Origin: Flavobacterium tegetincola DSM 22377
GTDB lineage: Bacteria > Bacteroidota > Bacteroidia > Flavobacteriales > Flavobacteriaceae
Reading direction: 5' to 3'
Assembly (NCBI RefSeq): GCF_000425485.1
Contig: NZ_KE384384.1
Location: forward strand, 248,001 to 312,000
DNA length: 64,000 nucleotides
Below are positions 1,710 through 15,748 of the stretch, piece by piece. How positions within the stretch are numbered: position 1 is the first letter of the stretch; the number at the start of each line of letters is the position of its first letter. The notes below the pieces were generated by a model that saw nothing but the letters and a program-made list of their open reading frames with translations, ran no database searches and was not told the DNA's origin. A program made the translations under genes and the position numbers.

Positions 1710-2846
1710 CTATTTAAAAAATTGATGAACGTGCTCCGCGATGTGCTTGCGGTCGCTGTCGTTTAAATTTGACCCTGAAGGCAGACACAATCCCGTTTCG
1801 AATAAGTCCTTTGCTACAGTCCTCCCGTAATACGGGAATTCCGCAAAAACCGGTTGCAAATGCATCGGCTTCCACAGAGGTCTGCTCTCAATGTTGACTT
1901 GCTCTAAATGCAATCGTAAACCTTCCGCCGTCTTGCCGTTTGCTTCTTCTGCGTTTATTGTAATTGCCGAAAGCCAATGGTTTGAGAAATAGTCGCCACT
2001 GGATTCTTTGAACACGGTCACGCCTGGAATTTCAGCAAATAAATTGATGTAAAAATCGTGCATGTTTCTGCGGTATCCGATGTGCTTGTCTAGCACTTCC
2101 ATTTGTCCACGGCCAATCCCTGCGCAAATGTTGCTCATTCTATAATTGTACCCTATTTCTGAATGTTGGTAATGTGGTGCAGCATCCCTAGCTTGCGTCG
2201 ACAGAAAAACTGCCCTGTCTTTCACTTCCTGCGTGTGTGCCACTAAAGCGCCTCCACCCGAGGTTGTAATTATTTTATTTCCATTGAATGACAAAGCCGC
2301 TATCGCTCCAAAAGTTCCGCATTTTTTTCCTTTATATGTACTTCCCAAAGCTTCCGCGCTGTCTTCTAAAATTGGAATATTGTATTTATTTGCAACTGCA
2401 TGCACTTCGTCTACTTGATACGGCATCCCATACAAATGCACTGCTATGATTGCTTTCGGTTTTATCCCTTTAGCAATGCGGTCCGTAATTGCTTCTTCCA
2501 ACGCGATTGGACATAAATTCCAGGTTGTTTCTTCACTGTCTACAAAAACGGGTATTGCTCCCAAATATCGGATTGGATTGGCAGACGCCGAGAACGTCAT
2601 GGTTTGGCATATCACCTCATCCCCTGCTTGCACTCCTAGAAGCACCAATCCTAAATGCAACGCAGCGGTTCCGGAACTCAAGGCTCCAACATGTACCTCT
2701 TCCCCAAGGTAGACTTTTAAATCCTCTTCAAATCCATTAACATTAGGTCCCAATGGCGCAACCCAATTGGCGTCAAACGCCTGTTGTACAAACTTTTGCT
2801 CTGCACCTCCCATGTGTGGGGAAGACAACCATATTTTATCTCGCAT
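1710..2846 (-). CDS. PglE-like PLP-dependent sugar aminotransferase (DegT/DnrJ/EryC1/StrS family)
   Basis: The protein is a full-length 378-residue DegT/AHBA_syn aminotransferase. The N-terminus reads LSSPHMGG and APLGPNVNGFE, as in Campylobacter PglE. The PLP-binding aspartate is near residue 162 (ILEDSAEALGS) and the Schiff-base lysine is K191 within FNGNKIITTSGGG. It should transfer an amino group from glutamate to a UDP-4-keto-6-deoxy-GlcNAc, giving UDP-4-amino-4,6-dideoxy-GlcNAc, the bacillosamine precursor. The PglF-like dehydratase follows it. A separate TAnnTTTG box sits just upstream. The PglD- and PglC-like partners lie about 13 kb away across inserted material. Confidence 0.9.
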   Translation of the reverse strand: MRDKIWLSSPHMGGAEQKFVQQAFDANWVAPLGPNVNGFEEDLKVYLGEEVHVGALSSGTAALHLGLVLLGVQAGDEVICQTMTFSASANPIRYLGAIPVFVDSEETTWNLCPIALEEAITDRIAKGIKPKAIIAVHLYGMPYQVDEVHAVANKYNIPILEDSAEALGSTYKGKKCGTFGAIAALSFNGNKIITTSGGGALVAHTQEVKDRAVFLSTQARDAAPHYQHSEIGYNYRMSNICAGIGRGQMEVLDKHIGYRRNMHDFYINLFAEIPGVTVFKESSGDYFSNHWLSAITINAEEANGKTAEGLRLHLEQVNIESRPLWKPMHLQPVFAEFPYYGRTVAKDLFETGLCLPSGSNLNDSDRKHIAEHVHQFFK

Positions 2847-2865
2847 GATGAATTTGAATTAGCTG

Positions 2866-2873
2866 CAAATGTA
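2866..2873 (-). promoter_or_regulatory. TAnnTTTG -7 element upstream of the PglE-like gene
   Basis: TACATTTG on the minus strand ends about 20 bases before the ATG at 2846, giving a very short 5' leader. No clear TTG -33 element is visible at the expected distance. It suggests that the PglE/PglF-like pair can be transcribed independently of the main locus. Confidence 0.45.
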
Positions 2874-3406
2874 CAATTTTTAGATTTATATTTTAAGTTT
2901 TTTTTATGAGAGTTGGGGGAGGTGGTTAGTGGGCAGTGGTCCGTATAGTGGGATGGATTTGGGAGGAAGTAATCCTTGGATTGTGTACACTCCTTTCCTT
3001 TAGTTTTACTTCTTAATTGGTGCCACTTATAATTTGATATAAAAGATCAATTATTTTTTAAAAGTGTATGAAATGTTGTTAAGTCTTAGACTTTCGCAGA
3101 GCGGAATTACTGTAAGTGATAGGCAATGCGGCGAAGTCGGAGACGTTCGCAGAGCGGGGTTGAGAAGTGGTCAGTGGTCCGTTTAGAGGGATGGATTTGG
3201 AAGGGAGTTTTAGGAAATGGGAAGTAGGGAAATGCATTATATAAATTGGGAGTGACAAGCGGGAAGAGGAAAAATGAAAGATGTAGCACGGAAACTGGAA
3301 GATGGAAGATGGAAGTAGGAATTTCGTTGTGCTTGCTGATTTTTGAACGGGTTTTTGGGTGGCGGGGTTGTGCTTTCGTACTTTTTACTACTATCCCAAT
3401 GGGGGT
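2874..3406 (+). other. Gene-free stretch with direct and inverted repeats
   Basis: No credible gene is seen here. The stretch holds two near-copies of a sequence of about 45 bases (2923-2968 and 3167-3210), sharing CAGTGGTCCG and GGGATGGATTTGG. It also holds one full and one half copy of the CTGCGAA-type hairpin repeat (3128-3157 and about 3089-3105), and a purine-rich run around 3250-3310 (repeated GGAAGATGGAAG). It forms the left flank of the small cassette that starts at 3407. Confidence 0.6.
3128..3157 (-). repeat. Single copy of the CTGCGAA/TTCGCAG hairpin repeat
   Basis: The segment has arms GCGGCGAAG and CGTTCGCAGAGCGG around a loop of about ten bases. It is the reverse orientation of the hairpins clustered at 11480-11717 and 14521-15025. 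It is REP-like: short, palindromic, intergenic and multicopy. Confidence 0.6.
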
Positions 3407-3610
3407 TTATCCGAGGATTAGGGGCTCGACTTCTTGCTTTGACAATCCGGTGTATGTGCAAAATTCTTCAATTGAAAGCAACTGACTGCTGCTTCGATTG
3501 AGGCTTTTTTTGATTTCCGAGAAAATCCTGACACTTTGTCTGTAGCTTTTGCCTGTAACCGTTTGAATGTCCTTCGGATAAATGCAGATCCTTTTGTGCT
3601 GGTTTTTCAT
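3407..3610 (-). CDS. Small helix-turn-helix-like protein, cassette regulator candidate
   Basis: This 67-residue basic protein has two helix-turn-helix-like halves: YPKDIQTVTGKSYRQSVRIF at the N-terminus and SIEEFCTYTGLSKQEV at the C-terminus. From memory it resembles a small uncharacterised family common in Bacteroidota with the pattern YPKDIQxITGKS...EFCxYxGL. It has no signal or membrane segment. Its ATG lies inside the last of four direct repeats of about 11 bases (3608-3653), so it may be autoregulated or leaderless. It is divergent from the four-gene plus-strand set beginning at 4160. DNA binding is inferred from the fold-like pattern, not shown. Confidence 0.65.
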   Translation of the reverse strand: MKNQHKRICIYPKDIQTVTGKSYRQSVRIFSEIKKSLNRSSSQLLSIEEFCTYTGLSKQEVEPLILG

Positions 3611-3653
3611 ACACTACTCATACACTATCTATACACTATCTATACACTATCCC
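3608..3653 (+). repeat. Four direct repeats of about 11 bp (ATACACTATCT), iteron-like
   Basis: Units at 3608-3618, 3619-3630, 3631-3641 and 3642-3653 share ATACACTAtct with 11-12 base spacing, about one helical turn. The first unit contains the start codon of the minus-strand small gene. The regular spacing suggests an operator or cooperative protein-binding site, though a recombination site is also possible. Confidence 0.7.
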
Positions 3654-3712
3654 TACTTGTGGCTTCTACCTGATTTCATTGTAAATGGTCATTTCAACTT
3701 TAATAACACAAA

Positions 3713-3759
3713 CAAATTCAAAACAAATTCAACGGCAAATTCAACGGCAAATTCAAGGG
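3713..3759 (+). repeat. Four tandem 12-bp repeats (CAAATTCAACGG)
   Basis: Units start at 3713, 3724, 3736 and 3748. Two are identical and the outer two differ at the 3' end. Together with the 11-bp array, this gives two different helical-turn-spaced repeat arrays between divergent transcription units. Confidence 0.7.
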
Positions 3760-4159
3760 TAAATCACGATCAACCTCAATTTCAATTGCACGGGCAATTA
3801 TTATCGTAATGCACTACTCATTTAAATCATTAGATCGTTTCGTTGCCTTGTACGATTGTATTGTTTGTTACCGATTTATGGTTTTGGCTTCGCCTACTGC
3901 CATGGAATGCATTTAGTGGATACTTTGCTCCCAACTTTAGGCTCAGGATAGGTGCAAGTTAATAAAAACGCACTTAAAAAGGCAGGACATTCGTGTCGAT
4001 TTTTGCCACTTATGTCGCTTTGTGCCATCTGGTACTGCCACTGTTAGGAACTGATCTTAAAACCTTTAATCTTTGTATCACTCAATCGGAGGAAAGTTGC
4101 AACGAACGTATGATTGAACGGATTTTAAATGAGTTTTTTAATTTTAAATTTTAGAAATT
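3760..4159 (+). other. Upstream region of the cassette, possible promoter near 4067
   Basis: No gene is supported. TTAATCTTTG at 4066-4075 is a near match to the -7 element (three bases instead of two between TA and TTTG). It would give a leader of about 75 bases before the ATG at 4160. A 15-codon reading frame at about 4110-4154 is too short to support. Confidence 0.4.
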
Positions 4160-4918
4160 ATGGCAAAGCAAAGAGGCATAATCAAGTTGAGAGGGACTAT
4201 CGGAGATATTACCTTCTACAAAACGAAAGACGGGCATTTGGCTCGTGAAAAGGGAGGCGTTGACGCGAAGCGCATGGCTACAGATCCTGCTTTTCAGCGC
4301 ACTCGGGAGAATGGTTCTGAATTTGGACGTGCGGGAATTTCTGGCAAGTTACTGCGAACTGCCTTTCGCAGTATTTTAATGAACGCGAGTGACGGCCGCA
4401 TGACGTCACGACTGACACAGCAGATGATGAAGGTTATTAAAGCAGACGCTACTAGTGTCCGTGGTCTTCGAAACGTCATCGATGGCGAGGCCGAACTGCT
4501 CGTTGGTTTCGAATTTAACATTCGCTCTTCCTTGAGCAGCACGTTCTTCGCACCAATCGACGCCTCAATTGATCGCGGAACCGGAGCATTGACGGTCGCT
4601 ATTCCGCCTTTTAGTCCGTTGAGTATGATTTCCGCTCCTAGTGGTTCTACTCATTACAAAATTATCTCTGCAGGGGCAGTGGTCGATTTCGTCGCTGGTA
4701 CTTTTACGCTGGCCACTTCTGAAACTGCACCTCTTCCTTGGAACATGGTTGAAACCGCTGTACTTACTCAAGTGAATGCGTTGCCTGTAGCTACCACTGC
4801 TCCTCTGTTTTTAATCCTGGGGATTGAATTCTATCAAGAAGTCAACAGCATCTTCTACCCTCTTAACAATGGTGCTTTTAACGCATTTACGATTTTGAAA
4901 GTTGATGGTGGTGTTTAA
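4160..4918 (+). CDS. Uncharacterised 252-residue cassette protein
   Basis: The function is not recognised. The protein starts MAKQRGIIKLRGTIGD and is basic over its first 120 residues (FYKTKDGHLAREKGGVD, TRENGSEFGRAG, KLLRTAFRSIL). The second half is rich in beta-forming and small residues. There is no signal peptide or membrane segment. From memory, close look-alikes with the GTIGxIxFYKxKDGxLAREKGG start occur as unannotated proteins in many Bacteroidota. It is the first gene of a tight plus-strand unit with a DUF5675 protein 18 bases downstream and two tiny membrane proteins. It could be structural or nucleic-acid binding; neither is shown. Confidence 0.75.
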   Translation: MAKQRGIIKLRGTIGDITFYKTKDGHLAREKGGVDAKRMATDPAFQRTRENGSEFGRAGISGKLLRTAFRSILMNASDGRMTSRLTQQMMKVIKADATSVRGLRNVIDGEAELLVGFEFNIRSSLSSTFFAPIDASIDRGTGALTVAIPPFSPLSMISAPSGSTHYKIISAGAVVDFVAGTFTLATSETAPLPWNMVETAVLTQVNALPVATTAPLFLILGIEFYQEVNSIFYPLNNGAFNAFTILKVDGGV

Positions 4919-4936
4919 TATTTCAGCTGTTTAACG

Positions 4937-5338
4937 ATGCTCTTATTTTTAAACAGAACTTATTTCCCCGACGGAACCAACGGTCAGCTTCATGCGGATG
5001 GCACATTTATTTGCTACACCATTGAGTTGCCCTGGAAGGAAAACGAAGCCCGCATTTCGTGCATACCCGAGGGGATTTATTTTATTCGCAAGCGTTACAG
5101 TTGTAAATTTCAATGGCATCTTGAAGTCGTTGCAGTTTATAACCGGCAGTTGATTTTATTTCACCCCGCCAATGACGCTTTAACTGAGTTGCAAGGATGT
5201 ATTGCACCGGTTTGCCAATTGTCCGGTCCTGGTTTAGGACTGATGTCGCGCTCTGCTTTCAGTAAACTGAAAACAGTTGTTTATGCCGCCTTAGAACGGA
5301 ATGAACAGGTTGAATTACGTATCACTTCTACATTATAA
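4937..5338 (+). CDS. DUF5675 family protein
   Basis: This 133-residue protein carries the DUF5675 pattern: CYTIELPWKENEARISCIPEG near residues 27-46, FHPAND around His76 and LQGCIAPV around Cys88. The spaced His and GCI resemble the active-site layout of L,D-transpeptidase-like enzymes, but that comparison is an inference. No secretion signal is visible. It sits between the 252-residue unknown and two small membrane proteins. Family assignment is good, the activity is unknown, and a peptidoglycan-linked role is the most tempting guess because of the neighbours. Confidence 0.78.
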   Translation: MLLFLNRTYFPDGTNGQLHADGTFICYTIELPWKENEARISCIPEGIYFIRKRYSCKFQWHLEVVAVYNRQLILFHPANDALTELQGCIAPVCQLSGPGLGLMSRSAFSKLKTVVYAALERNEQVELRITSTL

Positions 5339-5341
5339 ATT

Positions 5342-5557
5342 ATGAAAAAAATAGTAAAAAGAGCTGCTGCTCCTACTCCGAAATTTTTTAAAGTACTTCG
5401 TACTATTGGTTTAACGCTTGCAGCCGCAGGCGCTACTGTACTCACCTCCCCTATCTTACTGCCTGCCGCAGTATTGAGTTTAGGCGGTTACTTGGCTGTT
5501 GCCGGAGGCGTTATCACGGCGGTGAGCCAACTCAGTGTCCGCAATGACTCCGAATAA
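5342..5557 (+). CDS. Small hydrophobic membrane protein (holin-like in size)
   Basis: This 71-residue protein has a basic N-terminus (MKKIVKRAAAP). Two hydrophobic stretches follow, at about residues 24-40 (GLTLAAAGATVLTSP) and 45-63 (LSLGGYLAVAGGVITAV). It starts four bases after the DUF5675 gene and its end overlaps the next gene. Size and topology recall phage holins, but no holin family is recognised. Confidence 0.6.
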   Translation: MKKIVKRAAAPTPKFFKVLRTIGLTLAAAGATVLTSPILLPAAVLSLGGYLAVAGGVITAVSQLSVRNDSE

Positions 5558-5720
5558 TACCACCCTCAGCGGAACGGCAGGTGGCACTTTCTTGAGTATC
5601 GGTCCTAACCTCAACTCAGACGACTTCTTACGCACTGTTATTTTAGCTGTAATCGGAGCCCTCGTTAGCTTTGTGGTTTCGGTATTACTAAAATGGCTTT
5701 TGGCTCGTCGCAAAAATTAA
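5544..5720 (+). CDS. Small single-span membrane protein, last gene of the cassette
   Basis: About 58 residues from the ATG at 5544; a GTG three codons earlier is the alternative. A Gly/Ser/Thr/Asn-rich N-terminus is followed by one membrane segment (residues about 32-52, VILAVIGALVSFVVSVLL) and a basic tail KWLLARRKN. It overlaps the preceding gene by 14 bases, so translation is probably coupled. A strong hairpin terminator follows within 22 bases. Function unknown. Confidence 0.6.
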   Translation: MTPNNTTLSGTAGGTFLSIGPNLNSDDFLRTVILAVIGALVSFVVSVLLKWLLARRKN

Positions 5721-5741
5721 ATTTTTATCTTTAACTTTTTT

Positions 5742-5773
5742 AAGTCAGGTCCTCGGATCTGGCTTTTTTTTTT
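5742..5773 (+). terminator. Rho-independent terminator closing the cassette
   Basis: AAGTCAG pairs with CTGGCTT, with an inner TCC/GGA pairing. The stem is followed at once by a run of about ten T. It lies 22 bases after the last small membrane protein gene and defines the cassette's right transcriptional end. Confidence 0.85.
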
Positions 5774-6202
5774 GCTTCTGTACGCATTTGTACCTCATTT
5801 TTAAGGTCGAGTTGTCCATTGTTACTATATTGCAATACATGCGATGTGGTCTGCCTTGCTGTCGTAGTGTGGTTACCTCCTACTTCCAAATGCTACTAAA
5901 AAAGCTGTTTTTACTGTTTTTGTCTATCGAATTGTTTTAAAAGCTGCGAAATTGGAGCTGTTGCAGGGCGGTGCGTTATTTGATGGTGATTGAGGTGTTG
6001 CGAAGTTGGTGGTTCGCTACGAGGTCTGGGGAAGTGCTTTTTTAGTGTAGTGACAGCTAAATGACCTAAAAAAAGTCACAGCTGGAATAGTTAAAAATTT
6101 TTTCTGTATTTTTGAAACGGTTTTTAACTATAAGACCGGTTCCTGCTGTGTACTTTATATTTTGCATAGCGTAGGGCAACCTAACCAACATAAACAGTAC
6201 TA
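5774..6202 (+). other. Gene-free stretch with degenerate hairpin repeats and a promoter
   Basis: No gene is supported. Two decayed copies of the CTGCGAA-type repeat lie at about 5943-5972 and 5997-6024. A -7-like TATTTTTG at 6107-6114 precedes the response regulator gene. Confidence 0.5.
6107..6114 (+). promoter_or_regulatory. TAnnTTTG -7 element upstream of the response regulator
   Basis: TATTTTTG fits the element exactly. The predicted leader is about 80 bases to the ATG at 6203. A clear TTG -33 element is not seen. Confidence 0.4.
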
Positions 6203-6640
6203 ATGATGCACGACCTTTTACTAGCTGATGACGATTGTGACGACTGTCTTTTTTTTCAAGAGGCTTTAGATGAGTTACCTATGGATTGCATACTCACAAC
6301 TGTAAATGATGGTGTAGCACTAATGGCGTATCTGACTCAATCTACTTCGAGATTACCTAAAGCTCTTTTTCTGGATTTAAATATGCCTTTAAAATCAGGT
6401 TTTGAATGTTTATCCGAAATTAGATCAATCGAACATCTTAAGCAGTTGCCTGTAATTATTTTTTCAACGTCTTTTGATACTGAAGTCATTCACTCTTTGT
6501 ACGCAAATGGTGCTAGTTATTACATCCGGAAACCAGGGGAATTTGATTCTTTAAAGTATGTCATTGAGGAGGCGATTCGCCGTGTGGACGTTTCTAATTT
6601 TACTCAACCGGCTCGAAATCATTTTATCATTCAACCTTAA
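6203..6640 (+). CDS. Single-domain response regulator (CheY/Rcp1-like)
   Basis: The 145 residues consist only of a receiver domain. The acidic pocket is at residues 9-11 (LADDDCDD), the phospho-acceptor is D58 in LFLDLNMP, the signalling Ser/Thr is in IIFSTS near 88-90, and the conserved lysine is K110 in IRKP. There is no output domain, so it probably acts by protein contact or in a phosphorelay. The histidine kinase gene begins 16 bases downstream, which makes the two a likely pair. Confidence 0.9.
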   Translation: MMHDLLLADDDCDDCLFFQEALDELPMDCILTTVNDGVALMAYLTQSTSRLPKALFLDLNMPLKSGFECLSEIRSIEHLKQLPVIIFSTSFDTEVIHSLYANGASYYIRKPGEFDSLKYVIEEAIRRVDVSNFTQPARNHFIIQP

Positions 6641-6656
6641 CTCTTAACGGATACTT

Positions 6657-9600
6657 ATGCCGAATACCAATACTTATTTTTTGCAAGGTGGTGGCGAAAT
6701 GGGTGCATTGATCAGAGCAAAAGATTGGAGTACTACTCCATTGGGCGTTCCTGAAAACTGGCCTCGAACCTTACGCACCATGGTATCCGTGATGCTTAAC
6801 GCTCCCTTGGGAATGTACATTGCCTGGGGAAAAGAACACACACAAATCTATAATGATGGGTACCGCCCCCTTTTAGGCACCACCACACATTCTGAACATT
6901 TGGGTACAGGTGCTGCACCTTCATTATACGATATTGGGAATAGCATCGAGTCACTTTTTGATGGTATTATGAACGGTGGACCTGCTGGTTTTCAAAATTT
7001 AATTCTTCCAATCAACAGAAATGGCACTTTAGAAGCTAGTTATTTTGAAATTGCTTATAGTCCGATTCCATTGGAAAATGGCGCAGTGGGTGGCGTTTTA
7101 ATTACTGTAATTGAAACTACAAGTAAGAAGGAAGTCGCCGACCAACTCAAAGCCAGTGAAGAACGCTTTAAAACCTTGGCCGATAATATTCCAAATTTGG
7201 CATGGATGACCACAAAAGAGGGCGCTCTGTATTGGTACAACCAGAAATGGTATGATTATACCGGAACAACTCCCGACAAGGTTATGGGATGGGATTGGCA
7301 ACAAGTCATCCATCCTGATTATCTTCCTATCGTACTAAAAGAGTGGAAAGCGGCCTTATCATCAGGCACTTCTTTTGAACTCATCTATCCTTTATTAGGA
7401 GCCAATGGCCAATACAGATCCTTTCTTTCGCGTGCTTTACCTGTAAAAAATGAGGAAGGAGCCGTTATCGGATGGTTTGGTTCCAATACCGACATGACCC
7501 TCCAAAAAGAAACGGAGGAAGCACTGTCTGATAGCAAGATGGAATTAGAATTTGCCATTGAAGCGGCTCAATTGGGTACATTTGATTTTAACCCCTTTAC
7601 CAACGCCTTTTCGGCAAATAACAGGTTGAAAAAGTGGTTTGGACTGTCCGAGAATGAAGGTATTGATTTATCAAATGCCCTTGATATTATCGTAGAGAGT
7701 GACAAGTCAAAAGTGGCACACGCTATTACAACTGCACTTGATTTCTCCTCTGGCGGCCAGTATGATATTGAATATAGGATTATCAATCCGATCTCGAAAG
7801 AAGAAATTTCTTTGCACGCTAAGGGCAAAGCGTGGTTTACTTCCGATAAAGTGGCTTACCGTTTTAACGGAACTTTAGAGGATGTCACTGCCCAAACAAA
7901 CGCACGAAGACTTACTGCATTGAATGCGGAACTGACCAAAAATATGGTTTTGGAAGCCCCGATCGGCATTTGTGTGATCAATGCTTCAACACTACGCACC
8001 GAGAATGTAAACGACCGTTTTCTTGAAATTGTAGGCAAAACCTATGATGAAATTTATGGGAACTACTATTGGGATACTTTTGGACAAACTAAGATTATTT
8101 ATGAGAAAGAACTTCAAAAAGTCATTGAAACGGAACTCCCTTTTCACCTTAATGAAGTAGAAGTTTTATTGCACCGGCATGGAACACTAGAGCCTCTGTT
8201 CATCACTTTTGTCTATGCTCCTTTAAAAAATGAGGAAGGAACGGTGGTAAAAGTAGCCGTTTGGGTGATCGATCATACCCAACAGGTGCTTGCTCGAAAT
8301 AAAATTACAGAAAGCGAGGAGAATTTAAAACTTATGATTTTACAGGCTCCCATTTCTATTTCTATTTTGCGTGGTGCGGCTTATAGGGTTGAAATTGCCA
8401 ACAAAAATGTATTGGCCCTTTGGGGTCGAACAGAAGAAGAGGTACTTCATAAATCCATTTTTGAGTCCATGCCTGAGTTGCAGACGCAAGGGATAAAAGA
8501 ATTGTTAGATGAAGTGGTCGCTACTGGCACGCGTTTTTCTACCAATGAACTTGCGATAGCCTTTATTAAAAATGGCGTTTCGGAAACCGTTTATGTCAAC
8601 TTTTCTTATGAACCCTTGTATGATGCGAAGGACAAAATTACAGGGATCATGGTCATCGGATTTGACGTTAGTGCCCAAGTATATGCCCGACAAAAAGCCG
8701 AAGAAAGCGAAGAAAGCATTCGTGCCTTAGTGGAAAGCGCCCCTTTTCCAATTGGCGTGTATAAAGGCAAGGAGATGGAAATAACTTTGGCCAATCAATC
8801 CATTATGGATGCGTGGGGCAAGGGAAATGAAGTGGTGGGCAAACGCTATACGGACGTCTTACCGGAATTAAAAGAACAAAAGATTTTTAAGCAAATTCAG
8901 GACGTTTTTCGCACCGGCATACCCTTTCATGCGATCAACCAACGGGTGGATCTCGAACACAATTCGATTTTAAAATCCCATTATTTCAACTATAGTTTCA
9001 CCCCTTTGTTTGATGCAGCAGGCGCCATCTACGGCGTAATGAATACTGCAGCTGATATTACCGAATTGCATCAAGCGCAACAAAAAATAGAAGAAAGTGA
9101 GAAGCGATTTCGCAACTCAGTATATCAAGCCCCACTTGGCATCGCCATTTTCCGAGGAACGGATTTTATCACTGAAATTGCCAACAATAACTATCTTGCT
9201 TTAGTGGATAAAACGACCGAAACGCTAATTGGTATTCCCCTTTTTGAAGCCTTACCCGAGGTCAAAGATTTGGTGGAACCTCTTTTCAATGCTATCCTAA
9301 AAACAGGAGAACCCTTTCACTCAAATGAATTGCCTGCTAATTTAAAACGAAACGGAAAAGTCGAGCTTACCTATTTCAACCTCGTTTATCACCCGTTATT
9401 TGAAGAAAACGGTACAATTTCCGGAATTATGGTGGTGGCTACAGAAGTAACCAACACGGTAAAAGCAAAACATTTATTACAACAAAGTGAAGCCCATTTT
9501 CGCAATATGGTGATGCAATCGCCCATCCCGATGACTATTTTAAGGGGAACGGATTACATTATTGAATCTGCTAACAACGTAATGTTGCACGACATTTGGC

Positions 9601-11402
9601 GCAAAAAGCGAGAAGACGTCATTGGACGTCCTATTCTGGAGCTCTTTCCAGAATTAAAAGAACAAAAGTATGCTGCCTTGCTCCACTCTGTTTATAATTC
9701 GGGTACCACACATAGTGAGAAAGAATCGTTAGCCCTCATAGCAGCTGAAGACGGAACCAAAGAATTTTACTTGGATTTTGAGTATGCACCCTTGTTTGAA
9801 ACTGATGGGATTATTAGTGGCATCATGATCACGGTCAACGATGTTACCGACAAAGTTACCGCACGTAAAAAAGTTGAAAACACGGAAGAACGTCTGCGAC
9901 TGGCCACCGAAGCAACGGGAATTGCCACTTGGGATTTGGATTTAGTGCATCAAACCATCATCCACTCGCCAAGCCTTGCAGAGTTGTTTGGATACGATGC
10001 ATCAGCGGTATTGTGCCATAAAATAATCAGCGCTCAAGTGCATCCTGAAGATTTGCCCCTTGTACTCAATGCCAGAAAATCAGCCAAAGAAAAAGGAATT
10101 TACAGCTACGAAGCCCGAATCATAAAAACAGACGGAAGCATTATATGGATCAGAACGCAGGGGAAAGTATATTTTAATGCCGAAAATGAACCCTATAAAA
10201 TAATTGGAACGTCTAGAGACATCAATGACGAAAGGAATTTCCAGCACGTTTTAATGGAAAGCGAAGCCAAATTTAGGTTGTTGGCCGATTCCATACCGCA
10301 ACATATCTGGACCGCAGATCCTCAAGGAAATATTATCTATTTCAATCAATTTGTTTTTGCCTATTCTGGTTTGACTTTAGAAGCGCTGCTACAAGACGGA
10401 TGGATGCAAATTGTACACCCAGATGATCGTGTTGAAAATGAAACGCTTTGGCTTGCATCCATTGCAACCGGAAAAGACTTTTTATACGAACACCGTTTTA
10501 GAAGAAAAGACGGGACGTACCGTTGGCAGTTGAGTCGAGCAGTTCCACAACGGGATGAAAGTGGTACAATTACCCGATGGGTGGGAACCAGTACAGATGT
10601 TCAAGATCAAAAAATGTTTACCTATGAACTTGAAAAACAGGTCACAGAACGAACAAGCGAAATCAATCAGAAAAACAATGCTCTAGAAAAAATGAACAAG
10701 GAGCTGCAATCCTTTGCCTATATATCAAGCCACGATTTGCAAGAACCATTGCGTAAAATTCAGATTTTTGCCTCTCAAATTAAATCTAAGGAAGCTGCTA
10801 ACTTGTCTGTCAGCGGGTTTGAGAAATTTGAAAGAATACAAAATGCAGCACATCGCATGCAGACCTTGATCCAAGATTTATTGGTTTATTCGCGTTCTAG
10901 CTTTCAAGAACGAATTTTAGAACACACAACTCTTGACGCAATAATTTCAGAAGTACGTGAAGATTTAAGCGAAGAAATCATTCTAAAACAGGCCACCTTA
11001 CAAGTAGTTCATTCGTGTGAACTGCACGTAATTACCTTACAGTTTAGGCAAGTTATTTTCAATTTGATCAGCAACTCCTTGAAATTTACAAGAGAAAAAG
11101 TGCTTCCAATAATCATTGTGAACGCTGAAGTAGGCAACGGCTCCGATTTTGACCACCAAATTTTAGCGCCAGACCAACGGTATTGTCGAATTTCCATCAA
11201 GGACAACGGCATCGGTTTTTCCCAAGACTACAAGGAGAAAATATTTGAAGTATTTCAACGCCTGCATGCCAAAGAACAATTTGCCGGAACCGGAATCGGT
11301 CTTGCAATCGTCAAAAAAATCATCGACAATCACAAGGGCTTCATCACCGCATCCGGCGTACCTGATCAGGGTGCCCTTTTTGATATTTATATCCCAGCCT
11401 AA
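6657..11402 (+). CDS. Soluble multi-PAS sensor histidine kinase
   Basis: The 1581-residue protein has about ten PAS or PAS-like modules. One lies in the first 150 residues, and further modules begin near 165, 285, 420, 545, 680, 810, 940, 1075 and 1200, each introduced by a repeated EESEExF-type helix. A HisKA domain follows with the phospho-accepting H1359 in SSHDLQEPLRK. The HATPase domain has its N box around N1473 (ISNSLKF), DNGIGF, and GTGIGLA at 1544-1550. No membrane span or signal is visible, so it should sense cytoplasmic cues. There is no receiver domain of its own. Its likely partner is the receiver protein encoded immediately upstream. Confidence 0.92.
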   Translation: MPNTNTYFLQGGGEMGALIRAKDWSTTPLGVPENWPRTLRTMVSVMLNAPLGMYIAWGKEHTQIYNDGYRPLLGTTTHSEHLGTGAAPSLYDIGNSIESLFDGIMNGGPAGFQNLILPINRNGTLEASYFEIAYSPIPLENGAVGGVLITVIETTSKKEVADQLKASEERFKTLADNIPNLAWMTTKEGALYWYNQKWYDYTGTTPDKVMGWDWQQVIHPDYLPIVLKEWKAALSSGTSFELIYPLLGANGQYRSFLSRALPVKNEEGAVIGWFGSNTDMTLQKETEEALSDSKMELEFAIEAAQLGTFDFNPFTNAFSANNRLKKWFGLSENEGIDLSNALDIIVESDKSKVAHAITTALDFSSGGQYDIEYRIINPISKEEISLHAKGKAWFTSDKVAYRFNGTLEDVTAQTNARRLTALNAELTKNMVLEAPIGICVINASTLRTENVNDRFLEIVGKTYDEIYGNYYWDTFGQTKIIYEKELQKVIETELPFHLNEVEVLLHRHGTLEPLFITFVYAPLKNEEGTVVKVAVWVIDHTQQVLARNKITESEENLKLMILQAPISISILRGAAYRVEIANKNVLALWGRTEEEVLHKSIFESMPELQTQGIKELLDEVVATGTRFSTNELAIAFIKNGVSETVYVNFSYEPLYDAKDKITGIMVIGFDVSAQVYARQKAEESEESIRALVESAPFPIGVYKGKEMEITLANQSIMDAWGKGNEVVGKRYTDVLPELKEQKIFKQIQDVFRTGIPFHAINQRVDLEHNSILKSHYFNYSFTPLFDAAGAIYGVMNTAADITELHQAQQKIEESEKRFRNSVYQAPLGIAIFRGTDFITEIANNNYLALVDKTTETLIGIPLFEALPEVKDLVEPLFNAILKTGEPFHSNELPANLKRNGKVELTYFNLVYHPLFEENGTISGIMVVATEVTNTVKAKHLLQQSEAHFRNMVMQSPIPMTILRGTDYIIESANNVMLHDIWRKKREDVIGRPILELFPELKEQKYAALLHSVYNSGTTHSEKESLALIAAEDGTKEFYLDFEYAPLFETDGIISGIMITVNDVTDKVTARKKVENTEERLRLATEATGIATWDLDLVHQTIIHSPSLAELFGYDASAVLCHKIISAQVHPEDLPLVLNARKSAKEKGIYSYEARIIKTDGSIIWIRTQGKVYFNAENEPYKIIGTSRDINDERNFQHVLMESEAKFRLLADSIPQHIWTADPQGNIIYFNQFVFAYSGLTLEALLQDGWMQIVHPDDRVENETLWLASIATGKDFLYEHRFRRKDGTYRWQLSRAVPQRDESGTITRWVGTSTDVQDQKMFTYELEKQVTERTSEINQKNNALEKMNKELQSFAYISSHDLQEPLRKIQIFASQIKSKEAANLSVSGFEKFERIQNAAHRMQTLIQDLLVYSRSSFQERILEHTTLDAIISEVREDLSEEIILKQATLQVVHSCELHVITLQFRQVIFNLISNSLKFTREKVLPIIIVNAEVGNGSDFDHQILAPDQRYCRISIKDNGIGFSQDYKEKIFEVFQRLHAKEQFAGTGIGLAIVKKIIDNHKGFITASGVPDQGALFDIYIPA

Positions 11403-11966
11403 ATGGATTGCACCTACTCATTGGCAGCCCCTTCATCGCACTTTTGAAAAAAAGTTGACGTGGCTTGAAAAAGTGATTCGCTCTGCGAATGTCTGTGACT
11501 TCGCAGCATTTGTTCTTACATAAAAAATAATTTTCATTATTTACAATCATCGCGTTACTGCTCTGCGAATGTCTGTGACTTCGCAGCACTTGATACACTT
11601 TTGAAAATAATTTGTCTTTTATTCTAAATTATATGTTGAGGTAAATCGTAATAGACTCCTGCGGAGTGACAAAGAAGTAGTACATCTCCGCTCTGCGAAT
11701 GTCTGTGACTTCGCAGCGTTGTATTTGACTTACGGTATTGTCTGTTTTATCGAGCACTGTAAAAATAGCTTTCTTTTTTTAATGTTTTGTTAGCAATCCA
11801 GCTCTTTTGAGATGAATGCTGCGAAGTTGGAGACCTTCGCAGAGTGGGGGAGCGGGGGTAATTTAATCAACACGACAAGTTTTTTTTAATGTTAAAGGTT
11901 TGTGTTGGTAGGCACGGATTGCAAATCCGCGTTATCGGGTTGCAACCACGCTATCGGGAAAATTTT
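11403..11966 (+). repeat. Intergenic cluster of CTGCGAA hairpin repeats
   Basis: No gene is supported. Three near-identical copies of GCTCTGCGAA-N10-TTCGCAGC lie at 11480-11507, 11560-11587 and 11690-11717. One inverted copy lies at 11818-11846. Each copy forms a 7-bp stem (CTGCGAA/TTCGCAG) with a ten-base loop. Between the second and third copies is a different hairpin, ACTCCTGCGGAGT (11655-11667). The same two hairpins with the same linker recur at 14521-15025. A short stretch near 11905-11950 (GGATTGCAAATCCGCG...) looks like another dispersed repeat fragment. Confidence 0.75.
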
Positions 11967-12650
11967 CTATGAAATTCTGGTAGTCGCTATAGCTTTGACC
12001 CATTTTTTATTTGTGCATTTTGAACATTTTATCATGTCGAATGCCTCTAAATGTTCAACATATCCACAGTTGCTGCATGCATAAGTTCCTGGCTCCACTG
12101 TCTGCTCTACTTTTCTATTGTAAAGTTCGGGCCATATTGGCAGCCCCTCTTTTACAGCACTGTCTGGATAGAAAAGTACACTTATTTCACCATTGGTTTC
12201 CAAAACTGCTTCTTTCACCTGCCCTAAATGTTCAATGCCTTGAGCTCTCAGTTCCGCAAAAAATTCGTCTGAGGCAAATTCATGATAGTCTTTCGATGTA
12301 GAGGTATTTACTCCTTCCTTGACTATATAGGTGGTCTTGCCTTCAAATACTTCCTCAAACCGCTCTGAGCGTGTGATTACAAAGACTATCCCTCTATATA
12401 TGCCTAAAATAATGGTAAAGATTAAAATTGGCGGCAGTAGCCCAACTTCCTTATACAACATTGGATCACCTGCCGAAGATCCCAGCGCTATTACCATTAC
12501 CATCTCAAAAATTGACAACTGTTTTACCCCTCTTTTTCCAGTTAATCGTAGCATAACTATTAAAAAAAGAAAAACAATACACGTTCGCAGTAACACTTCC
12601 CATAAGAAACTGAAGTCTTCTTCACCCATTATTAATTGTTTCCAATCCAT
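11967..12650 (-). CDS. DUF421 (YetF-like) membrane protein with C-terminal zinc ribbon
   Basis: The 227 residues include three membrane segments within about 15-105 (LLRTCIVFLFLIVMLRL, FEMVMVIALGSSAG, LPPILIFTIILGIYRGIVFV). A soluble DUF421 domain with the usual FFAELRAQGIEHLGQVKEAV and NGEISVLFY follows. The final 35 residues add a CSNCGY...CSKC motif, a probable zinc ribbon. DUF421 proteins are inner-membrane proteins without a settled role. The zinc-binding tail is additional to the minimal family architecture. The gene is monocistronic on the minus strand. Confidence 0.85.
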   Translation of the reverse strand: MDWKQLIMGEEDFSFLWEVLLRTCIVFLFLIVMLRLTGKRGVKQLSIFEMVMVIALGSSAGDPMLYKEVGLLPPILIFTIILGIYRGIVFVITRSERFEEVFEGKTTYIVKEGVNTSTSKDYHEFASDEFFAELRAQGIEHLGQVKEAVLETNGEISVLFYPDSAVKEGLPIWPELYNRKVEQTVEPGTYACSNCGYVEHLEAFDMIKCSKCTNKKWVKAIATTRIS

Positions 12651-12774
12651 TCTATTTACATTTTAATTATTGATATCTAGCGTATAACTGGTAACAGTTA
12701 ATGCGTCCTATTCCAAGTTGGTTCCATTCTCTAAATAAAATGTACGCACAACTTACTTGTATTCCTGTATAGGA

Positions 12775-12852
12775 TTAATTCTTTTTAAGATCGTCAACTA
12801 CTCCTTCTAAAAATCCTGCTGCTCCTGCTGCTGAACCATAAGATGTGTACAC
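12775..12852 (-). pseudogene. Possible remnant: 25-codon Gly/Ala-rich C-terminal fragment
   Basis: From GTG at 12852 the minus strand reads 25 codons ending TAA, including GSAAGAAGFLEGVVDDLKKN. This looks like the C-terminus of a protein. A stop codon lies directly upstream in frame, and another frame is open upstream, so it may be a frameshifted or truncated leftover of a small stress-type protein. It is short enough to be chance. Confidence 0.3.
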
Positions 12853-12931
12853 TTAGCTTTAGTCGCTTTGGTATAATTTAAAATCAGTTGGGTATTAATT
12901 TCTCTTATTTGCAAAATTGCACCTATATATA

Positions 12932-12989
12932 AGCCACAGCCAAAAAGATGATGAAGCTACTTGCGTCTCCCTCTTTTTTAACTGTGGCT
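12932..12989. terminator. Long two-part hairpin, possible terminator of the stress gene
   Basis: AGCCACAG (12932-12939) pairs with CTGTGGCT (12982-12989). Inside it, AAAAAGA (12942-12948) pairs with TCTTTTT (12972-12978). It lies about 95 bases after the minus-strand stress gene. It lacks a clear U-run on that strand, so a structured RNA or decayed element is equally possible. Confidence 0.35.
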
Positions 12990-13085
12990 ATTTAAATTAC
13001 TATTAAGTTCAGTACTTTACGTTTGTTGACAAGTCAAGTGGCGCCTGTACTCCAATTACCTATATTTAAAGACAGTACGCGATAA

Positions 13086-13628
13086 TTAACGATAAATATC
13101 TCGGCCCTCGTTGGCTCTCCAATTGTCTTCAAAATAAGCAGCATCTTCCTCATTTCTAGGGTGAACCCCTAAAACTACATGCCCGTCTTTGATGCCCTTT
13201 TCGTAAATTTTGGCTCGGTCTTCGGGAATACCTGAACCTACAAGTGCACCAATGATTCCACCTGCAATTCCACCCGCACCCGCACCGGCTAGTCCCGCGG
13301 CTAATGGACCTGCTACAATAATACCCAGACCCGGAATTACGATACTAGTTCCGATCGCAGCGATGACACCGACAATTGCACCAAGTGTTCCTCCGATAGC
13401 GGAGCCAGTACCTGCCGTTTCAGCCGCTTTTGTCCCTAAGTCCGAATGGTCGTTTTTATCCGAATAGTATTTTTCTCTTGTATCATCGGACATTAGCAAA
13501 TTGATATCATCATTCGTGTAGCCACGTTCCGATAAAGTACTGTATGCTCTTTCTGTACGATCTCGATCAGCAAACATCCCTGTTAACATGGGTCTACTTT
13601 TACTTTCTGTGTTGTGTGCATTTTCCAT
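13086..13628 (-). CDS. General stress protein (YflT/GSM17M-like) with glycine zipper
   Basis: In this 180-residue protein, residues 14-60 (MLTGMFADRDRTERAYSTL...GYTNDDINLLM) match the heat-induced/general stress domain that begins many YflT-type proteins. Residues about 72-132 form a Gly/Ala-rich, membrane-active glycine-zipper stretch (GGTLGAIVGVIAA, AGAGAGGIAGGIIGALVG). The C-terminus repeats the theme GHVVLGVHPRNEEDAAY. It is probably a membrane-associated stress protein. A TAnnTTTG box sits just upstream. The family is recognisable; the molecular role is unknown. Confidence 0.8.
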   Translation of the reverse strand: MENAHNTESKSRPMLTGMFADRDRTERAYSTLSERGYTNDDINLLMSDDTREKYYSDKNDHSDLGTKAAETAGTGSAIGGTLGAIVGVIAAIGTSIVIPGLGIIVAGPLAAGLAGAGAGGIAGGIIGALVGSGIPEDRAKIYEKGIKDGHVVLGVHPRNEEDAAYFEDNWRANEGRDIYR

Positions 13629-13657
13629 AGTTGTTTTTTTTAAAATTGATAGTATGT

Positions 13658-13665
13658 CAAATTTA
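13658..13665 (-). promoter_or_regulatory. TAnnTTTG -7 element upstream of the stress gene
   Basis: TAAATTTG on the minus strand gives a predicted leader of about 22 bases. A TTG lies 27 bases further upstream, which is wider than usual. Confidence 0.45.
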
Positions 13666-13927
13666 TTACTCCTTTATGTAAAAACTTTTATACAATTATA
13701 AACGCTTTTTATATTATTTAAGATCATTTACTTTATACCGACTTCAATCGTTTTAAATTGTCAGAAAATTTATATAATTTTAAACTATCTAAGAATATCA
13801 AAATATCATCGGGGATACTCTGCAAATTACGAATGGTGATGCTATAAAGTAATACGCTTGTACATTCCCTTTTTCTTTTTGTATTAATTTTACTAAACAT
13901 AAATATAAAATTTTAAAAGTTCTTGTT

Positions 13928-14365
13928 ATGCATTTATTCTATCGTCTTTTAATTTGTGCTTTTTTTGCCATGGTCACGATGACTGCTTTTAGTTACATCA
14001 TTTCAGCTACTTTTAGAGCTCTATATAAGGAACCTGTTTTGCTGACCTATTTTCTAGATGAACTCCAGTTAAAAGTTTCAGAACGCTTGAAAAGCATTCT
14101 CGCATGGATTCTTCATTATTGTATCGGTTTGGGTTTTGTGGTTTGCTATCACTTGCTTTGGACGTATCAACTGCCTTTTATTCGTTGGGAATCTGGTTTA
14201 CTACTAGGAGCGATAAGCGGTATAATTGGAATCTTAGGATGGGTCTTCATTTTCAGATATACACATCATAAACCTAAAATAGATTTTATCGGTTATTATT
14301 TGCAACTCCTAGCAGCACACATCATTTTTGGTTTAACCGCCTATGCGTGTTATGTCTATTTATGA
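13928..14365 (+). CDS. Uncharacterised four-span membrane protein
   Basis: The 145-residue protein is hydrophobic throughout. It has four predicted membrane segments, at about residues 5-27, 57-80, 89-111 and 124-144. No family is recognised with confidence. It stands alone between the stress gene (opposite strand) and a repeat-filled intergenic region. The upstream 300 bases are very AT-rich. Function unknown. Confidence 0.7.
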   Translation: MHLFYRLLICAFFAMVTMTAFSYIISATFRALYKEPVLLTYFLDELQLKVSERLKSILAWILHYCIGLGFVVCYHLLWTYQLPFIRWESGLLLGAISGIIGILGWVFIFRYTHHKPKIDFIGYYLQLLAAHIIFGLTAYACYVYL

Positions 14366-15154
14366 TGGTACCGGTTTTCAGCTGAAGGTTTATAGTGGTA
14401 GATTCGGGAGGTTGATTTCGGTGCTGAGAAATTGGAAGTTAGGCATTGGAAGTTAGGCATTGGAAGAAGGATGTTGAAGTTGGACGCGGTAGTGTGGAAA
14501 AGCATTTCTTTAGTGCAGCCCCGCTATGCGAAGGTATGTGACTTCGCAGCACTTTACATACTTTCAAAAAAGAATTTGCCTTTATTCCAGATTATAAGTT
14601 GAGCCACATTGTAATAGACTCCTACGGAGTGACAAAGAAGTAGTACAACTCCGCTGTTCGAATGTCTGCGACTTCGCAGCATTTGCTCTTACATAAAAAA
14701 TAATTTTCATTATGCACAACCATCGCGCTACTGCTCTGCAAATGTATTCGACTTCGCAGCACTTTATACACTTTTGAAAATAATTTGTCTTTTATTCTAG
14801 ATGATTTGTTGAGCCACATCGTGATAGACTCCTACGGAGTGACAAAGAAGTGGCACATTGCGCTACTGCTCTGCGAATGTCTGTGACTTCGCAGCACAAG
14901 ATATACTTTTGAAAATAATTTGTCTTTTATTCTAAATTAAATGTTGAGCCACATCGTAATAGACTCCTACGGAGTGACAAAGAAGTAGTACATCTCCGCT
15001 CTGTGAATGTCTGTGAGTTCGCAGCATTTTTTCTTACGTAAAAACTAATTTTCATTATTAACGATCCCTGCACTATATTAGATGTAGAATGGTGGTACAG
15101 TGACAGACTCCGCCTTTACTTGGCCAGTTCGCTACCGATTTAAAAGAAGGTAAT
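14366..15154 (+). repeat. Large intergenic cluster of two interleaved hairpin repeats
   Basis: No gene is supported. CTGCGAA-type hairpins lie at 14521-14550, 14651-14680, 14731-14760, 14868-14895 and 14998-15025. A second hairpin, ACTCCTACGGAGT, lies at 14618-14630, 14828-14840 and 14963-14975. They are joined by conserved linkers: TTTGAAAATAATTTGTCTTT, then TTGAGCCACATC before the second hairpin and GACAAAGAAGTAGTAC after it. The block reads as a partly tandem composite repeat of roughly 125-210 bases. A 14-base tandem (ATTGGAAGTTAGGC, 14431-14458) lies upstream. Confidence 0.78.
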
Positions 15155-15748
15155 TTAAGTAGGCCACTGGTCTTTTATAAAATTATCCACATCAAATTTG
15201 ATTGGAATAAAAGTATGCATCATGATTACAAGGTCCATTCGAATGTTGCGGTTTTCTGCATACCATTTATTGATTCTGACTTTGTCCGGCCAGATGATGG
15301 TATCGTTGTACTGAAGTGGATTTTGCTGGAGTGCTAAGGTCTGCTCTTCGTTGCGGTATTTTAGAGAGGCGAGTCCGGTTACGCCGGGGCGAACCGTTAC
15401 TATGATTCTGTCGGTACCTTCTAATTTATCTGCATATCCTGAAATGTCGGGTCTTGGGCCAACGAATGACATTGTGCCGTTTAGAATGTTGAAAAGTTGT
15501 GGGAGCTCGTCTAGTTTTGATTTGCGTAAAAAGGCGCCCCATAGCGAAATCGTTTTGGTACGATCGTTTAGTGTTTTAATTTTAAAGATGGTAAACGGCT
15601 TTCCAAACTTGCCGATTCTTTTTTGCGTAAAAAGTCCTACGGATTTGGTATCTATAGAAGCCCCGACAATCAAGATTACAATTATCGTTCCAACTAATAG
15701 CAATGCGTAGAGTGCTAAAAAAAAATCAAATAAGCGTTTTATTATCAA
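15155..15748 (-). CDS. Sugar phosphate transferase, PglC-type (second copy)
   Basis: This 197-residue bacterial sugar transferase has a single N-terminal re-entrant membrane helix (residues about 8-30). The amphipathic core contains FTIFKIKTL, KLDELPQLFNIL with the catalytic Asp-Glu, and FVGPRPD. It is a monotopic phosphoglycosyl transferase that would link the first sugar phosphate to undecaprenyl phosphate. The C-terminal part (WPDKVRINKWYAENRNIRMDL) differs from that of the other PglC-like protein at 16912, so its donor may differ. It is the last gene of the main minus-strand run before the insert. Confidence 0.88.
   Translation of the reverse strand: MIIKRLFDFFLALYALLLVGTIIVILIVGASIDTKSVGLFTQKRIGKFGKPFTIFKIKTLNDRTKTISLWGAFLRKSKLDELPQLFNILNGTMSFVGPRPDISGYADKLEGTDRIIVTVRPGVTGLASLKYRNEEQTLALQQNPLQYNDTIIWPDKVRINKWYAENRNIRMDLVIMMHTFIPIKFDVDNFIKDQWPT

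Follow-up and report, generated by a model that had tools for sequence, protein, structure and literature searches.

On balance, we favor reading a compact five-gene cassette in a 64-kb stretch of the Flavobacterium tegetincola DSM 22377 genome as an element-borne release module, in which a holin and a cell-wall enzyme would act under a small helix-turn-helix (HTH) regulator, with the 252-residue protein p252 as their protein partner. The stretch, hereafter the window, is the whole of the DNA analyzed (G000:C2:248001–312000 in a 3.77-Mb genome). This reading is carried by the phage lysis-like character of the genes downstream of p252, by the recurrence of the five genes in relatives, and by sequence comparisons which indicate that, in the three genomes examined most closely, the cassette forms one end of mobile islands with swappable cargo.

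Cassette genes and layout in the window

The five cassette genes, the divergent small HTH gene among them, together with their spacings, the terminator and two short arrays, had been described in a first-pass annotation of this DNA and were confirmed as follows (positions are those of the window).

3407–3610, minus strand: HTH-like open reading frame (ORF), 67 residues, divergent from the plus-strand unit
3609–3652, minus strand: 11-bp tandem array over the HTH start codon, 11 bp x 3.9 (3609–3651), proposed operator
3713–3764: 12-bp tandem array, 12 bp x 4.4
4160–4918, plus strand: p252, 252 residues, first gene of the unit
4937–5338, plus strand: DUF5675 protein, 133 residues, DUF5675 match E 8e-30
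5342–5557, plus strand: TM71, 71 residues, two-span membrane protein with an APTPKFF...LR motif, holin-like
5544–5720, plus strand: TM58, 58 residues, single-span membrane protein with a basic C-terminus
5742–5773, plus strand: intrinsic terminator ending the unit, 10-pair stem at 5742–5765 plus T run

The plus-strand unit is as tight as claimed, with one correction: the gaps measure 18 and then 3 bases (4 had been given for the second), followed by the 14-base overlap. Terminator-like sites in the region number 8, compared with 3.0 ± 2.0 expected. As a whole, the earlier interpretation was partly supported.

Lysis-like genes downstream of p252

The likeness of the downstream genes to a phage lysis module, suggested at first from gene content, gained support from the predicted structure of the DUF5675 protein and from the position of TM71 homologues in some phage contigs. 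The DUF5675 model (predicted local distance difference test (pLDDT) 92.2) looks like a YkuD (L,D-transpeptidase-like) fold, as rows 1–17 of the VIA-align comparison were all L,D-transpeptidase/carboxypeptidase-fold chains (Z 8.9–6.1) and the next row scored 2.8. At the sequence level, Pfam returned only DUF5675, with no YkuD profile match at E ≤ 1. The canonical catalytic motif of YkuD and the L,D-transpeptidases is SHGC, of which the DUF5675 protein has GCI alone; H76 is invariant and C88 at least 90% conserved among 25 sequences. No signal peptide was apparent by eye.

Relatives of DUF5675 are frequent in phages (192 phage records) and present in at least 596 of the 600 viral stretches matched, with a small membrane protein no more than three genes away in 55 of the 80 viral stretches retained, a count taken without a chance baseline. 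By hydropathy, TM71 has two spans and TM58 one. TM71 was not found in the 50,697 phage records; its homologues occur in six viral contigs and lie beside an endolysin or holin in three, namely directly before a Peptidase_M15_3 gene (Pfam) in L127, before a look-alike of that gene in L128, and after an adjoining Phage_holin_4_1 gene in L130. Among relatives, 31 of 33 TM71 matches (the own genome's two left out) fall within 2.5 kb of a p252 gene. TM58 gave one weak PHROG match of unassigned function (E 0.0053).

The enzyme position varies at some loci. At L110, a different DUF5675 (Pfam) and an 87-residue protein like the one preceding TM71 in phages stand beside p252, TM71 and DUF6943, a further gene described below. 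By inspection, a secreted-looking protein occupies or adjoins the DUF5675 position in L066, L073, L080, L081 and L097, and PcfJ- and PcfK-like genes follow the cassette in L080, L081 and L097.

The p252 family

p252 is a protein family without a name or proposed function, and we infer its role from position, conservation and linkage. It yielded no Pfam family match at E ≤ 1, no PADLOC match at E ≤ 0.01 and no significant PHROG match; a match to an NAD-kinase model in NCBIfam (E 0.00088) was taken as chance, scoring 18.7 bits against a cut-off of 219. Relatives were found in 21 of the 60 genomes searched (own included). All 21 belong to the own genus, and a single genome can have as many as seven matches. 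A named bacterial genome collection contained 264 confirmed stretches, of which the best 80 were kept; these are 62–68% identical to p252 and belong mainly to Flavobacterium, besides Oceanihabitans, Xanthomarina, Algibacter, Limnovirga, Chitinophagaceae and unclassified Bacteroidetes metagenome-assembled genomes.

With a median ratio of nonsynonymous to synonymous substitution rates (dN/dS) of 0.05 (15 pairs), p252 is the most constrained gene of the cassette, followed by the HTH gene (0.08), DUF6943 (0.10), TM71 and TM58 (0.15 each) and DUF5675 (0.22); in these medians some pairs are near saturation, and the window copy lies outside the test. The predicted p252 model (pLDDT 89.7) consists of N-terminal hairpins, helices at 36–94 and a C-terminal beta-sandwich, within which a simple hydropathy scale flags one stretch at residue 168. 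Residues 1–126 are more conserved than 127–252 (mean majority fraction 0.88 versus 0.77 in 31 sequences), and 28 of 31 cassette-type members have no cysteine.

Two identifications of p252 were tried and set aside. Neither Foldseek against the PDB nor a viral fold library gave a match at E ≤ 0.001, and VIA-align found a general resemblance of the beta-sandwich (residues 127–252) to Ig/FnIII/C2 domains (best Z 6.9), so that the fold searches together yield just a common beta-sandwich. Kinship with DUF6266, whose N-terminus looks alike, found no profile support: p252 and five distant relatives gave no DUF6266 match (Pfam, E ≤ 1), and hhalign of p252 against four DUF6266 proteins returned a probability of 0.2% from a thin profile.

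Recurrence across relatives

Recurrence was counted over loci L023–L122 minus L067, whose p252 DNA is the same as that of L065, giving 99 loci. Of these, 84 are cassette-type (at least 49% p252 identity), and the 66 with enough flank were counted for presence, strand and distance windows, not for gene order as such. The genes recur together in unrelated loci: all five in the same layout at 46 of 66, or at 49 if the HTH gene is allowed on either side. Taken singly, DUF5675 is present in 50, TM71 in 54 and TM58 in 56 of the 66 loci, and the HTH gene is 5' of and divergent from p252 in 63 of the 66 relatives with room and 3' of it in the other three. The initial description of a five-gene unit therefore holds for 46 of the loci and is too simple for others: a sixth, convergent gene, DUF6943 (PF22105; Pfam on two examples), occurs in 42 of 66, and some loci have no lysis gene, a point weighed below.

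The unit had also been put forward as a candidate for an undescribed system, and no published description of it was found among the titles and abstracts listed on its families, satellites, islands and lysis modules; PMC12324425, in the part available, concerns a different marine element.

Among distant p252 loci with room, TM71 is found in just 2 of 14. Distant lone p252 genes were seen by inspection in apparent polysaccharide loci (L111, L116, L119, L120 and L122), and in L111, L119 and L122 p252 is near PHP-type phosphatase-like and ABC-permease-like ORFs. At L026, L084, L093 and L109, an mnmE-like ORF (by inspection) ends roughly 0.6–1.2 kb upstream of p252; mnmE 3' ends serve as island integration sites.

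Carrier islands in relatives

In two genomes of different genera, G060 and G061, the cassette lies in a tRNA-Ser island with a shared two-ended backbone around unrelated cargo. The core end, a 6,374-bp stretch that starts at tRNA-Ser, is 94.5% identical between the two and the cassette end 98.2% identical over 3,577 bp; in the pairs of retrieved stretches compared, blastn gave no other match. Because only these two ends are shared, core and cassette together form a backbone around differing cargo. The core end comprises integrase, RteC, HTH_17, Rep-like and AAA genes (Pfam/PHROG on the G060 copy) and HipA-like ORFs seen by inspection; the G060 integrase is a tyrosine integrase with Arm-DNA-bind_5 (Pfam), and the Rep-like protein has no Pfam match and weak replication PHROG matches only. 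An intact tRNA-Ser(TGA) (ARAGORN) lies on the same strand as a tRNA fragment at a distance of 38.6 kb (G060) or 30.7 kb (G061), and ARAGORN called no tRNA gene at the displaced fragments checked; both islands thus have an integrase and a tRNA attachment (att) site split between their two ends.

Between L039 (Oceanihabitans) and L041 (Xanthomarina), a block of 3,837 bp is 98.0% identical while the flanking sequences differ; its left border is a tRNA 3'-end fragment, whose intact site is the tRNA-Ser(TGA) of G060 and G061 given above. In several of the closest pairs the similar DNA extends from about −770 to +3,100 or +3,600 relative to the p252 start. In Chitinophagaceae, the left end adjoins an intact tRNA in L064 (tRNA-Asn) and L096 (tRNA-Val). 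Mobility, suspected at first from the insertion alone, is supported by the 98% identical copies in two genera within tRNA-Ser islands. Outside the window the genes do sit in larger elements with an integrase/RteC/Rep-like core, for which no name was found.

A Rep-like gene lies within 70 kb of 13 of 29 cassette-type p252 genes, 11 of these on the 3' side and the opposite strand, and within 70 kb of 3 of 34 other p252 rows; the counts leave out rows from the own genome, fragments of Rep-like genes and Rep-like rows from genomes that have no p252, and the 34 include a few contig-end fragments. A third genome, G013, has a cluster of such islands starting at an intact tRNA-Ser. The G060 cargo includes DruE-, DpdE/DrmD-, DrmMI- and TmtA-like defense genes and that of a G013 island TIR (ThsB)-like and MTase_II genes; the G061 cargo is mostly other enzymes (by inspection). 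The middle G013 island has a similar core and no p252; behind the core lie endolysin and holin genes among ORFs that gave no match. This prophage-like region (L236:4462–15254, contig C6) is possibly an undescribed temperate phage.

Defense-like cargo in the islands of two of the three genomes examined (G060 and G013) would suit an abortive-infection module, in which p252 senses phage and the lysis set then brings about early death of the cell, protecting its kin, as one more island defense system. By inspection, some p252 genes moreover have Cas9-like ORFs nearby (L105, L117) or belong to polysaccharide loci. However, none of the five proteins matched PADLOC at E ≤ 0.01, the G061 island has the same backbone with no defense gene recognized by eye (no PADLOC scan was made there), and p252, under strong constraint, shows none of the rapid change perhaps expected of a sensor. 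We consider this explanation unlikely, though not negligible.

The order of the operon, a protein followed by lysis genes, resembles a late operon, and p252 could accordingly be imagined as the coat or virion protein of a satellite or virus-like element whose lysis genes free the particles. The lack of cysteine in 28 of 31 cassette-type p252 proteins would fit, as would the neighboring G013 island, in which a similar early core is followed by endolysin/holin genes and p252 is missing. In contrast, no capsid or portal gene was recognized by eye in the listed islands (no profile search was made), the viral fold library returned nothing at E ≤ 0.001, and p252 is practically absent from viral collections, which leaves this alternative rather unlikely.

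HTH gene and repeat arrays

The HTH protein has excisionase/regulator-type matches, weak only. Both repeat arrays claimed for the divergent region were found. The 11-bp array overlaps the HTH start. When 19 lags were compared over the upstream regions of 89 HTH genes, that of the window among them, mean self-match peaked at lag 11 (12.66 versus 10.44 shuffled), with lag 10 second (11.96). A strong repeat is present in only five of the 89 regions, and degenerate array forms ending GATAGTGTATG or similar precede many HTH starts of relatives. A second array built on the same 11-bp unit is found 100 kb off at G000:C2:352226–352279 (L002 1500–1560), near or upstream of rplC and without an HTH gene; it is possibly a remnant of another cassette copy. 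For the 12-bp array, a scan of 98 intergenic regions turned up nothing comparable in the other 95, apart from AT-rich 12-mers in L004/L023, which are one and the same locus. As it is not conserved in relatives, this array may be due to chance.

A conserved hairpin upstream of DUF6943 and SSB-DUF932 operons

A conserved non-coding hairpin of about 135–220 nt lies upstream of DUF6943 in the elements and also upstream of SSB-DUF932 operons. In 47 unique loci it precedes DUF6943 (33) or DUF6266 (4), with no tagged gene in 10. Its arms pair in 98.3% of cells, and double-change cells number 46 versus 11.8 in shuffles, a value reached by 0 of 500 shuffles, and at most 5 in slid versions. Two other counts lend covariation no support: that of pairs with double changes (7 versus 5.4, a value that 47 of 500 shuffles also attained) and that of further pair types (10 versus 12.3). 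As DNA, four examples fold with z values of −4.9 to −8.2. A covariance model matched in at least 21 of 60 genomes; since 40 candidates were scored per genome, the hairpin numbers are lower bounds. Rfam returned nothing for the conserved non-coding block, the sole match in 12 loci being Flavo-1 elsewhere in L036.

Twelve weaker matches (57–84 bits) were examined, of which nine precede SSB/DUF932-like genes, one (L280) DUF6943 and two (L273, L281) neither. The nine DUF932-side hairpins measure 134–136 nt and come from four genomes, eight with a visible SSB-like gene first; in L278, SSB, DUF932 and PRTRC_E were confirmed by Pfam.

Hairpins with DUF932-like genes: L274, L275, L276, L277, L278, L279, L285, L286 and L287
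Hairpins with DUF6943: L112:3891–4160 and L272:5450–5599

DUF6266 genes with the same hairpin lie about 0.9–1.6 kb upstream of p252, beyond the HTH gene, in L035, L041 (weak), L057 and L068.

A wider interpretation would place the islands in a class of Bacteroidota mobile elements not described before, in which the cassette serves for exit and the hairpin with DUF6943 for entry. The donor would be opened by the phage-derived lysis set together with p252, acting as a coat or being itself released; the island would arrive as single-stranded DNA, on which the hairpin promoter, specific to Bacteroidota and shared with conjugative helper elements, would switch on DUF6943/DUF6266 as early anti-defense or establishment genes, and exchangeable cargo, defense systems included, would travel between the fixed island ends. 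At present we regard this scheme as speculative and its probability as low. Still less probable, in our view, is that the cassette remodels the cell wall for conjugative or mobilized island transfer, as a transfer peptidoglycan enzyme with membrane partners. The same elements do carry a hairpin related to that of the SSB-DUF932 operons, which suggests transfer as single-stranded DNA, but TM71 and DUF5675 have homologues in phages, some in lysis position, and neither a relaxase nor a type IV secretion gene was recognized beside the cassette in the listed islands (no search was made).

The window copy and the polysaccharide locus

The window copy lies in an insertion bordered by polysaccharide genes.

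1710–2846, minus strand: aminotransferase gene at one border of the insertion; in NCBIfam it matches LegC family aminotransferase best, with a score below cut-off
2847–15154: 12.3-kb insertion relative to the polysaccharide operons of relatives, from their sugar transferase-aminotransferase spacing
15155–15748, minus strand: sugar transferase gene, the other border
16061–16729: NeuD/PglD-like gene

The cassette had been said to separate PglE- and PglD-like genes; it does lie between them, but within about 13 kb that hold several other genes too. Besides the cassette, the insertion holds a response regulator, a PAS/kinase-like ORF (by inspection), a YetF-like gene and two further ORFs. Six of 19 relatives have their equivalent of the sugar transferase gene 20–119 bp from the aminotransferase gene (tblastn bounds); in 4 of 19 NeuD is beside the aminotransferase gene, and in 9 of 19 neither gene is within 1.5 kb. 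Comparison with such empty sites reveals the 12.3-kb insertion but does not resolve the borders of the cassette itself. A nucleotide comparison of the window's first 16.5 kb with relatives showed similarity around the cassette over about 3406–5693, plus a short L116 match at 3257–3321. A crude pattern found no tRNA end left of the HTH gene. No phage structural genes adjoin the cassette, the identified neighbors being polysaccharide, regulator and YetF-like genes and two ORFs remaining unmatched. The reported absence of phage structural and integrase genes thus holds around the window cassette, but not for integrases in the islands of relatives. The nearest integrase match on the contig is about 57 kb before the window, and other contigs of the own genome carry carrier-type Rep-like and integrase genes. 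The own genome also has a second, contig-end cassette piece with the hairpin, DUF6943, TM58 and part of TM71. The window cassette looks like a displaced copy because it lies in a polysaccharide operon without a tRNA or carrier integrase nearby. Its standing alone in this way would also suit a decayed remnant without function, but its five ORFs are all open and the genes of relatives are under purifying selection (median dN/dS 0.05–0.22), which makes this very improbable.

Proposed mechanism and weighing of the evidence

In the release-module reading, the window cassette would be a displaced copy of a module that integrative islands carry in Flavobacteriia and Chitinophagaceae. Its small HTH protein may bind the 11-bp-phased repeats over its own start and control the divergent operon, which would produce p252 together with a phage-derived set that opens the cell wall. 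The putative YkuD-fold enzyme, having no apparent signal peptide, would need the holin-like TM71 to reach peptidoglycan, and TM58 could help or time TM71. Once the operon is on, the envelope would be opened and p252, alone or with something that it coats, would exit, or the cell would lyse.

Several observations weigh against this reading. The main evidence against a simple cargo-plus-lysis view comes from loci that have p252 but no lysis genes: p252 and the HTH gene stand without a single lysis gene at 9 of the 66 loci, and the membrane genes occur without DUF5675 at 7, so p252 can persist without the full lysis set. p252 homologues were found in 0 of 50,697 phage records, with one pattern-based match in viral contigs. 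The DUF5675 model has no PDB match at E ≤ 0.001 by Foldseek, so that the YkuD call rests on VIA-align, and the surroundings of TM71 in viral contigs L125, L126 and L129 are not clearly lytic. Of the 29 cassette-type p252 genes, 16 have no Rep-like gene within 70 kb, contig ends not being allowed for. Finally, the 64-kb window has no tRNA, no carrier-type integrase ORF, no DUF6943 and no accepted hairpin, the best candidate, at 29502–29611, having been rejected at 16.4 bits and E 0.09.

p252 is a conserved family with up to seven members per genome, whose cassette form is very strongly selected and tied to phage-type lysis genes. If the module releases p252, it would constitute a holin-based exit route in Bacteroidota islands; if it lyses infected cells, a new defense design.

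Comparison with known systems

The cassette resembles phage holin/endolysin cassettes in combining a cell-wall-enzyme fold that has no apparent signal peptide with small membrane proteins in one tight operon, and in having TM71 and DUF5675 homologues in phage contigs, partly in lysis regions. It differs in having at its head p252, a protein missing from phages, and a divergent HTH gene, and in lying on integrative islands in which no virion genes were recognized. With the YkuD family (Pgp2, YkuD, DpaA, Tlde1a, Csd6), the DUF5675 model shares a whole-domain match (Z 6.1–8.9 over 93–111 residues) and a conserved His and Cys, but the protein has no sequence-profile match and only the GCI of SHGC. 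RteC is known from CTnDOT-type regulation in integrative islands, and the carriers resemble such islands in their tyrosine integrase (Arm-DNA-bind_5), RteC, HTH_17 and tRNA-Ser att site, whereas no account of the cassette was found in the literature searched and the window copy has no such genes nearby.

Type 10 secretion is a holin/endolysin-based release, represented, in the parts available of the two reports, by Serratia ChiX and its holin (PMC9527704) and by Yersinia entomophaga (PMC10847048). There, too, a bacterium uses phage-derived lysis genes and the cargo has no signal peptide, but cargo and enzyme are unrelated to those described here, where the enzyme is of predicted YkuD fold, the unit lies on mobile islands and its part in secretion is putative. 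We liken the cassette to the type 10 secretion set and do not claim membership.

For the hairpin, the closest parallel is Frpo promoters, described in PMC11541004 as single-stranded DNA that folds ahead of SSB and other early genes in conjugative leading regions. No report of such a single-stranded promoter in Bacteroidota was found among the papers listed, which is a weak test. Like Frpo, the hairpin is long, stable, conserved and upstream of SSB and early-entry genes; unlike Frpo, it is of other sequence, comes from Bacteroidota and also precedes DUF6943 and DUF6266. By this analogy, the shared hairpin is a candidate Frpo-like promoter in Bacteroidota that can be tested directly.

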